Source: Candidatus Nealsonbacteria bacterium RIFOXYB1_FULL_40_15 (GTDB taxonomy: Bacteria; Patescibacteriota; Minisyncoccia; Minisyncoccales; GWA2-38-27). Taken from it: a stretch of DNA of 47,524 nt. The notes under the pieces are model-generated. The model saw only the letters and a list, made by a program, of their open reading frames with translations. It was not told where the DNA came from and did no database searches. Made by a program: the position numbers and the translations under genes. The stretch is taken from NCBI GenBank assembly GCA_001821555.1, contig MHMM01000004.1:1-47524 (forward strand). The letters are read 5' to 3'. The first letter of the stretch is position 1, and every line of letters starts with the position of its first letter. Shown here piece after piece: positions 1,486 through 43,153 of this stretch.

Positions 1486-1761
1486 TCACACCCTCTCAAC
1501 TCTCTCGATTGTCCCGCCATATACACTGTCCCAGAAACCAATCCGGATCAGTGTTTGGCGGATTTCTTGATCCATCATCTCACTCGGATCGAGATCATCC
1601 GGCCAATTATAGACCGGCTGGAGCCGATCGTTGCCATGGACAACGCGCCCCTGCGCGATTGCGTTATGACTAAGAAGGATGTCCCTTCTCGCTCCAATGA
1701 TGATCGGCGTATTAGCCGAGCCATCATTCACAGTCCAAACTTGCACCGAACAGCCAGTCAT
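1486..1761 (-). CDS. Hypothetical small protein (91 aa)
   Basis: ORF preceded by GAAAGGGACAAATC-ATG and a consensus promoter upstream. Confidence 0.65.
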   Translation of the reverse strand: MTGCSVQVWTVNDGSANTPIIIGARRDILLSHNAIAQGRVVHGNDRLQPVYNWPDDLDPSEMMDQEIRQTLIRIGFWDSVYGGTIERVERV

Positions 1762-1818
1762 GATTTGTCCCTTTCTCTATACGGGAAACAATGAACTTTC
1801 CGTTTCTACGATACTTTA

Positions 1819-1846
1819 ATTATAGCATATTGTATCTTTTTGTCAA
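1819..1846 (-). promoter_or_regulatory. Consensus sigma70 promoter TTGACA-N16-TATAAT
   Basis: Minus strand reads TTGACAAAAAGATACAATATGCTATAAT; exact -35 and -10 hexamers. Confidence 0.8.
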
Positions 1847-1884
1847 TAGTTTACTGACACAGGTTATTCTGTTATTATATCCTT

Positions 1885-21129: not shown

Positions 21130-21819
21130 TTACAAGGCCATTTCGTTTATCTTTTTTTCTTTTAAATTCAGCTTACCGTCAAAATTGTATTCAATGAGCC
21201 CCCCGAACGCTATTTCAAGATTAATAATATCTTTATCGGGTATCTTTTCTATATATTTTACAATAGCTCTCAAAGAGTTATGACTTGAAACCACCAGGAT
21301 ATTTTTACTATTCATAAGATCTTTTTCCACATGCTTTTTATAAAAAGGAATGGTTCTTTTGAAAACATCTCTTAAAGACTCTCCTCCTGGAGGCCTCACA
21401 TTATAACTTCTCCTCCAAAATCTAACTTTTTCCTCTCCATACTTTTCAATAGTTTCTTTTTTATCAAGGCCCTGCAGTTTTCCATAAAATCTTTCATTCA
21501 GTTTTTCGGTGACATAAACGGGAACATCATTATTGTTTAAATCCGTAAATTTGCCCCAACTTTTCATCTTTCCCTTATTAAAATGAATGAAAATAGGATA
21601 CTTTTGATTGTTTTTTTCTAGAATTTCGGCTACTGTATCCATATTTCTAAACAAAGAAGAAGAATAGATCGCATCTATCCTATTCTTAAAAATCTCTTCG
21701 GAGCATATTTTAGCCCTGTTTCCCTGATTCTTAGCCAATGGAACATCAACCCAGCCGGTAAATCTATTTTCTTCGTTCCATTGGGACTTCAGGTGGCGCA
21801 AAAGAAATAATTTAGACAT
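21130..21819 (-). CDS. gpmA: 2,3-bisphosphoglycerate-dependent phosphoglycerate mutase family
   Basis: LFLLRHLKSQWNEENRFTGWVDVPLA, LNERFYGKLQGLDK, RRSYNVRPPGGESLRD, SSHNSLRAIVKYIE. Confidence 0.85.
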   Translation of the reverse strand: MSKLFLLRHLKSQWNEENRFTGWVDVPLAKNQGNRAKICSEEIFKNRIDAIYSSSLFRNMDTVAEILEKNNQKYPIFIHFNKGKMKSWGKFTDLNNNDVPVYVTEKLNERFYGKLQGLDKKETIEKYGEEKVRFWRRSYNVRPPGGESLRDVFKRTIPFYKKHVEKDLMNSKNILVVSSHNSLRAIVKYIEKIPDKDIINLEIAFGGLIEYNFDGKLNLKEKKINEMAL

Positions 21820-21856
21820 TAAGATATTATAGCAAATAAACCGCTGAAGTGAAATC

Positions 21857-31293: not shown

Positions 31294-31476
31294 TTTTGAG
31301 GAAAAACCCGAAATAATCCTTGCCTCGGATTTAAAATGGCGCCTCAACGCTTTTAGAATAGCCTCGTTTGCAAGGCCTTTTTCGGGCATGGCTTTCACTG
31401 AAACTATATAAAATCCTTCTTTCTCTTCAATTGACTCTTTTTTTGACCCTGCCCTTGCCTTCACGGATATTTTCAT
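31270..31476 (-). CDS. DUF167/YggU family protein
   Basis: MKISVKARAGSKKESIE...YIVSVKAMPEKGLANEAILKALRRHF. Confidence 0.9.
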   Translation of the reverse strand: MKISVKARAGSKKESIEEKEGFYIVSVKAMPEKGLANEAILKALRRHFKSEARIISGFSSKKKIVEIY

Positions 31477-31793
31477 TTGACTATGGATCCATTCAAAACT
31501 TCCTTGTCCGGAACCAGCAATACCGGCTCCCCTTGGTTGTCAGCGGCCAGTATCATCCCCTGGCTTTCAATACCCATAAGCGTTTTCGGCTCCAGATTGA
31601 CGACAAACGGAATCTGCTTTCCTTTTAAATATTCAAGGTCATAGCTCCTGCCGATTCCGGCCACTATCTGCTTTGTTTCCTCTCCGAATCCGACTTGAAG
31701 CTTCAAAAGCTTATCCGACCCCTCTATTTTTTCGGCATTCAATATTTCTCCTACCCTTATGTCTATTTTCTTAAAATCTTCAAAGTTTATCAT
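31473..31793 (-). CDS. Standalone tRNA-binding (MetRS beta / Arc1-like) protein
   Basis: FKKIDIRVGEILNAEKIEGSDKLLKLQVGFGEETKQIVAGIGRSY...VVNLEPKTLMGIESQGMILAA. Confidence 0.9.
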   Translation of the reverse strand: MINFEDFKKIDIRVGEILNAEKIEGSDKLLKLQVGFGEETKQIVAGIGRSYDLEYLKGKQIPFVVNLEPKTLMGIESQGMILAADNQGEPVLLVPDKEVLNGSIVK

Positions 31794-33253: not shown

Positions 33254-33390
33254 AAAAAAAAGCGAGGGGCATAGGTTGTCCCCCGCCGGGCTGATGAAAG
33301 GTTTTCTCATCAGCTCAGTTATAAGAAGCAAGCTCCTTGTTAAGAGCAAGCTTCTTTGAATGTACTATTTACGTGGCTTAAAACAGCCAC
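33254..33390 (-). ncRNA. Candidate structured RNA (leader/attenuator or sRNA), ~137 nt, unclassified
   Basis: Three hairpins then a GC-rich hairpin plus T8; near-consensus promoter immediately upstream. Confidence 0.6.
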
Positions 33391-33396
33391 AATCGT

Positions 33397-33424
33397 ATTA
33401 TAGCAGTATTTCTTACCAAATCAA
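33397..33424 (-). promoter_or_regulatory. Promoter TTGATT-N16-TATAAT
   Basis: -35 33419-33424, -10 33397-33402 (minus); predicted start ~33390. Confidence 0.7.
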
Positions 33425-33583: not shown

Positions 33584-34336
33584 TCAGAACCCTAGCCGAA
33601 GCCCCAGCACAATAATGGGACACTGGTCTATCTCAATCTTGTTTGGGAAATCTTGGTTATCCTCGTATTTGATTTCCCTCAACCCCACGCCCGCAGATGC
33701 CTCAAGCGTGAAATCGTCCCCTTGGACAACCGGATAGATAAGACTAAGATTTATCTCGTTTATCTCCGGCGAGTTATCCAAGGGAAAAGAATAGAACCCT
33801 TCAAGTTCCAACGTGAAATCGCCCAGTTCTATTCCAGCAACTCCGCCCACCCTGACAGAGGCCTTGGAGTACGATCGATCCACCAGCCCCACTCCGTCGC
33901 TCAACTTGTAGTGGAACATCAAGACTGACAGATCTGCCCCGGGCGACAGTCTTACCTTTCCTTCTCGGATATCATACAAATATCCGAATGCTAGAGTATC
34001 AAAGGCGAGGTCCGAGAAGAGCTTTTCTCCCTCCAAAAAGCTCTTATTTTGGCTTATTAGGCTATCTCCGAGAAAACACTCTCCCGAAGCCCTTCCCATT
34101 GTTCCTTTGAAAAACCCTGTGTGTCTTCCTTTGTTAAGATAGACACTTCCTCCATACGTCTCCACATCTTCGATCCCGATCTCTTTTAACGTGGGCCTTC
34201 CGCTGCTGCTCGTGCCTTCTTTTCCTCCGCAGGGAGTCTGAAGGCTTCCTTCCACGAAACTGCGAGAATATTGGAAGGAAACTTTCGTATTGCACCCCGC
34301 AACAAGCACGGCCAAAAGAACAAAAATTCTGTACAT
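33584..34336 (-). CDS. Lipoprotein/beta-barrel-like outer-surface protein
   Basis: MYRIFVLLAVLVAGCNTK lipobox; alternating beta-rich C-terminal half ending ...VLGLRLGF; SD GAAAGGAAGG. Confidence 0.55.
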   Translation of the reverse strand: MYRIFVLLAVLVAGCNTKVSFQYSRSFVEGSLQTPCGGKEGTSSSGRPTLKEIGIEDVETYGGSVYLNKGRHTGFFKGTMGRASGECFLGDSLISQNKSFLEGEKLFSDLAFDTLAFGYLYDIREGKVRLSPGADLSVLMFHYKLSDGVGLVDRSYSKASVRVGGVAGIELGDFTLELEGFYSFPLDNSPEINEINLSLIYPVVQGDDFTLEASAGVGLREIKYEDNQDFPNKIEIDQCPIIVLGLRLGF

Positions 34337-42614: not shown

Positions 42615-42660
42615 GATTTCATAATATATTATCCTTATGCCAAAATCAAACCTTAAAAAA

Positions 42661-42725
42661 ATAGGCCTGGCCTATCGCCAAAACCATGAGAAACCATGAG
42701 CCTGGCTCATATGAGCCTGGCTCAT
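42661..42725. repeat. Three 15-nt odd palindromes sharing a GCCTGGC core
   Basis: ATAGGCCTGGCCTAT 42661-42675; ATGAGCCTGGCTCAT 42696-42710 and 42711-42725 (tandem). Confidence 0.9.
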
Positions 42726-42750
42726 TTTAACTGGCTGATTTAAATAAAGA

Positions 42751-42780
42751 AGCTCCTGCAAACATTTGTTTGCAGGAGCT
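42751..42780. terminator. Terminator hairpin
   Basis: AGCTCCTGCAAACA-TT-TGTTTGCAGGAGCT, followed on the minus strand by TCTTTATTT. Confidence 0.8.
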
Positions 42781-42838
42781 AAGCGGAGATTACCGATCAC
42801 AGCGTCCGAGAAGGGAATCCCTGATCGGGACGCTGGAG

Positions 42839-42913
42839 TCACCGTCGCCAGGCTTCCATCAAGGCGACAAGTGTGACCACGCCCAGAGCAAAGAGACAGA
42901 TTTCCACCATCAT
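42839..42913 (-). CDS. 24-aa putative membrane peptide
   Basis: MMVEICLFALGVVTLVALMEAWRR*; starts 4 nt after the stop of 42917..43153; SD GGAAGG upstream. Confidence 0.5.
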   Translation of the reverse strand: MMVEICLFALGVVTLVALMEAWRR

Positions 42914-42916
42914 GAC

Positions 42917-43153
42917 TCAATCCCTTCCAAAGTGGTTACACAAAAACTTATTCAGTCTGCGACGGCATGTGGGACAATCGTTTGCTCCTTCATTAATCAA
43001 GCTTTTCCTCACCTCGTCAAATTTGTCCCACCCCCGAAGAACTTTCACAGTCAAATGCTTATGCCTGAAGCCCCTATGGGCAACCCAAACAATCAAAGCG
43101 ACCAAGAGCGGCAGAAGAACTACGGTATTTTTTGAGAATATGGCTAACAGCAT
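42917..43153 (-). CDS. Small membrane protein with CxxC (78 aa)
   Basis: SD GAAAGGAAGCGCG-ATG; N-terminal TM MLLAIFSKNTVVLLPLLVALIVWVA, CPTC motif. Confidence 0.68.
   Translation of the reverse strand: MLLAIFSKNTVVLLPLLVALIVWVAHRGFRHKHLTVKVLRGWDKFDEVRKSLINEGANDCPTCRRRLNKFLCNHFGRD

Follow-up and report, generated by a model that had tools for sequence, protein, structure and literature searches.

A candidate orphan small-RNA gene with a predicted promoter and terminator upstream of a hydrolase-VIT1 operon in a Candidatus Nealsonbacteria genome

The stretch of DNA analyzed here (the window) comprises 47,524 nt of contig MHMM01000004.1 (assembly GCA_001821555.1, positions 1 to 47,524, forward strand) from Candidatus Nealsonbacteria bacterium RIFOXYB1_FULL_40_15, whose genome of 761 kb is 99% complete and whose GTDB lineage is Bacteria; Patescibacteriota; Minisyncoccia; Minisyncoccales; GWA2-38-27. 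On the minus strand, an intergenic element of 137 nt runs from 33390 to 33254, and the predicted promoter that precedes it extends to 33424. The gene upstream of the element occupies positions 33584-34336, and between the two stands a terminator-like hairpin, recognized by sequence and folding at 33543-33510 on the minus strand (AGGGCTTGCC...CAAGCCC followed by a T-run). Because the upstream gene ends before this hairpin, the RNA appears, from its sequence context, to be a separate unit.

Downstream, the ATG of an operon on the same strand lies 27 nt past the T-run that closes the element. Its first gene encodes a Bact_hydrolase protein (PF20603, 32729-33226, minus strand) and the next a VIT1/CCC1 family membrane protein (PF01988, 32028-32732, minus strand), followed by an MGMT DNA-binding domain, a tRNA_bind, and a DUF167 protein, with the ORFs overlapping by 4 to 14 nt. 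These gene identities, the overlaps, and the 27-nt distance had been proposed in an earlier note on this DNA, and they are borne out by domain search, the ORF list, and the sequence. By NCBIfam, the tRNA_bind protein is a stand-alone methionyl-tRNA ligase beta-type domain: the product of 31473-31793 (minus strand) passes the cutoff of TIGR00399, which describes the C-terminal part of methionyl-tRNA ligase. Between the terminator and the hydrolase ATG is an AT-rich, perfect 9-bp inverted repeat (TTTATAATA-ATTG-TATTATAAA, 33253-33232, minus strand), a hairpin absent from the earlier note, whose first T is common to the T-run. The repeat may be an operator or a start-region hairpin. It carries TTATAAT and ATTATAA halves resembling those of a PerR-type box, but these stand 6 nt apart, against 1 nt in that box.

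The predicted promoter (33424-33397, minus strand), identified by sequence and by a promoter scan, consists of a -35 hexamer TTGATT at 33424-33419, a 16-nt spacer, and an extended -10 element, TGC-TATAAT, in which TATAAT occupies 33402-33397. The seventh base after the -10 element, position 33390, is both the predicted transcription start and the first base of the first hairpin, in agreement with the start of about 33390 claimed previously, itself a prediction. The window contains four sites that combine TGNTATAAT with at least four of the six bases of TTGACA. Apart from the one at the element, these are at 21831, 21113, and 1824, all on the minus strand, and each shortly precedes an ORF of that strand, with starts at 21819, 21080, and 1761, respectively, which suggests that the promoter type of the element is one employed in this genome.

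The 137-nt RNA has a minimum free energy of -57.0 kcal/mol and is predicted to fold into four separate local hairpins without any multihelix junction. Its dinucleotide-preserving shuffles average -31.2 +/- 3.2 kcal/mol (z = -7.98), and none of the 200 folds as well. The plus strand of the same stretch folds less well (-52.9 kcal/mol, z = -5.2), and G-U pairs, such as those joining RNA positions 85 to 93 and 108 to 126, are confined to the minus strand. When 2370 segments of 137 nt covering both strands were scanned, the two best z-scores (-11.0 and -7.4) both fell on the element. Hairpin 1 (GTGGCT-GTTTTA-AGCCAC, RNA positions 1-18, 33390-33373) has 6 bp with pair probabilities of 0.99 to 1.0 and is followed by an unpaired A+U-rich linker, GTAAATAGTACATTCA, at 33372-33357, the longest single-stranded stretch in the fold. 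Hairpin 2 (RNA positions 35-68, 33356-33323) has 7 bp, a symmetric UU/UU internal loop, a further 6 bp, and an AACA loop; hairpin 3 (GCTGATGAGA-AAACC-TTTCATCAGC, RNA positions 77-101, 33314-33290) has 10 bp. Hairpin 4 (8+2 bp, RNA positions 104-130) is G+C rich and is followed by eight T residues, together forming a predicted intrinsic terminator at 33287-33254. Pair probabilities are mostly above 0.9, falling to about 0.75 for the inner pairs of the terminator, and the same hairpins form in growing prefixes of the RNA, except for a small rearrangement around hairpin 3. The promoter, hairpins, and terminator are thus all present where they had been placed by the earlier reading. A loop-loop contact between GUUUU of hairpin 1 and AAAAC of hairpin 3 is not significant (1.1% when these two loops alone are considered, but 30% when all pairs of unpaired segments are allowed), and an ORF search returned no convincing reading frame belonging to the element.

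At the gathering threshold, Rfam 15 assigns a single tRNA to the entire window and nothing to the element. In a permissive search of the locus, the best match is Thr_leader (RF00506), with 17.4 bits against a cutoff of 55 and an E value of 0.87. This comparison, which the earlier note had called for, places the element in no standard family, and the proposal of a candidate novel structured RNA is upheld, as a description of a sequence feature, by the fold z-score, the scan of the window, and the Rfam result.

Elsewhere in the window, the intergenic stretch at 42640-42920 folds strongly on both strands (z = -6.4 on the plus and -5.9 on the minus strand); a GAGCCTGGCTCAT motif recurs in it alongside long inverted repeats, and it has no Rfam match at threshold and is preceded on the minus strand by a possible 24-aa membrane peptide. 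At 1486-1847 (minus strand) is a small gene in which a TTGACA-N16-TATAAT promoter precedes a 91-aa ORF that no Pfam family matches; its terminator-like hairpin (GGAGTGCG-TTCG-CGCACTCC) runs into a T-rich stretch.

In its own genome, blastn (E <= 0.001) and a covariance model (E <= 10) each detect the element in a single copy. Blastn searches of 14 genomes of the family, which included no other genome of the same genus, 247 of the order, and 380 of the phylum gave no convincing relative, nor did the covariance model in 247 genomes of the order and 384 of the class, the reach of this model being limited by its construction from two copies of one sequence. The inspected matches fall in coding sequence or in unrelated intergenic DNA, or are chance or terminator-like hairpins: among the blastn matches, three lie inside coding sequence and two have no comparable hairpin array, and of the covariance-model matches, the best lies within a 244-aa ORF and another is an intergenic terminator-like hairpin. 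The top three covariance-model matches all skip hairpins 3 and 4. Phage and plasmid collections contain no match, apart from a weak one of 39 nt in a Streptomyces plasmid, and exact copies of hairpin 3 are absent from the viral contigs searched. Fast-evolving small RNAs are commonly without detectable relatives.

The element is accordingly a genuine, well-delimited sequence feature, belonging to no known family and having no relative in the genomes searched, and several of its properties favor, to a modest degree, a lineage-specific small noncoding RNA gene that has a promoter and a terminator to itself. Its folding is exceptional for the window, with the minus strand folding better than the plus; its putative promoter is of a kind also found ahead of other genes in the window; the upstream terminator would isolate the RNA from the preceding gene, and the terminator of the element lies before the operon. 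It contains no convincing ORF, and it has no relative in the genomes searched, the latter being common among rapidly evolving small RNAs. The main rival, distinctly less probable, is a 5' leader gating the hydrolase-VIT1-MGMT-tRNA_bind-DUF167 operon, in which the terminator would stop most transcripts, the 137-nt RNA would be the stopped product, and a protein, RNA, or ligand would permit some read-through. The proximity of the same-strand operon ATG speaks for such a leader, as does the promoter scan, in which no promoter-like site between the T-run and this ATG reached threshold; it is chiefly because no second promoter was found for the operon that we hold the small-RNA reading no more firmly. 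But no alternative fold that undoes the terminator was seen, the other hairpins remaining unchanged, and the 5' arm of the terminator pairs upstream with a mean probability of 0.18, in a test that did not separate the control thr, trp, and his leaders of E. coli from Spot 42 and DsrA and so favors neither reading. Nor does the element contain a junction-type aptamer or a leader peptide with repeated codons (its short frames have no codon runs and no clear ribosome-binding sites), and blastn, the covariance model, and the hydrolase relatives revealed no conserved aptamer common to the leaders of related genes; a classical riboswitch is unlikely. Whereas the earlier note had left the choice between an attenuator- or riboswitch-like leader and a standalone small RNA open, the latter is now the likelier of the two because the fold has only local hairpins and no junction, no antiterminator was seen to outcompete the terminator, and no relative was found in the genomes searched.

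The leader reading is further weakened by relatives of the hydrolase, which occur in 2 of the 14 family genomes and whose upstream stretches, as read directly, contain no such element; for VIT1 itself, the family genomes yield only two matches, both weak and partial. The element does adjoin a VIT1/CCC1 operon, as had been reported, but these hydrolase relatives leave a conserved link to metal transport unsupported. It is improbable that the element represents a new class of leader RNA, responsive to metal or stress, that senses its signal through the hairpins and a possible GUUUU/AAAAC contact and controls the hydrolase-VIT1 operon in this lineage. An unlikely explanation, though less so than this one, is that the region merely insulates its neighbors, comprising a promoter, inverted repeats, and a terminator and yielding an RNA without function. 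The lack of conservation in any genome searched accords with such an insulator, which could have arisen recently from inverted repeats, but four strong hairpins within 137 nt, with the best folding in the window, are hard to explain without selection. Least probable is a strongly diverged housekeeping RNA: the 6S (RF00013) and small SRP RNA (RF00169) models match nowhere in the whole 99%-complete genome, which speaks for such an RNA, but a row of four separate hairpins resembles neither molecule, 6S RNA being a single long bubble-bearing hairpin and small SRP RNA a single hairpin, and Rfam lists neither at the locus even at E values up to 10. The small-RNA reading has its own weak point in that, with no homologue found, selection on the structure gains no support from covariation.

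Under the preferred reading of an independent small RNA, RNA polymerase would start at about 33390 from the extended -10 promoter, transcribe the four stable local hairpins, and stop at the strong intrinsic terminator; the RNA set free would be about 137 nt long. The hairpin at its first base and the terminator hairpin at its 3' end would protect it from decay, and we infer that such an RNA is transcribed, stable, and active in trans. Its function is most likely regulatory, presumably exerted by short base pairing of the A+U-rich linker (33372-33357) or of the loops with other RNAs. Judged by sequence, it is a believable candidate small-RNA gene and, at present, one orphan from one genome. Literature searches returned no study of small RNAs in small-genome bacteria of this type, and a candidate this well delimited by a putative promoter and terminator would be of use when transcripts come to be mapped.

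Among known systems, terminator-type leaders such as Thr_leader (RF00506) and riboswitches share with the element the order of promoter, structured stretch, terminator, and operon. It differs from amino acid attenuators in scoring far below the family cutoff and in having no leader peptide with repeated codons, and from attenuators and riboswitches generally in showing neither a competing antiterminator nor an aptamer junction. From bacterial intergenic small RNAs such as Spot 42 and DsrA of E. coli, it differs in having no sequence similarity in Rfam and in that its expression is here a prediction. It resembles them in possessing, so far as sequence reveals, the promoter and terminator expected of a small RNA gene, in a length within the range of about 90 to 140 nt and its several local hairpins, and in ending with a hairpin that is predicted to serve as a terminator with a U-run.
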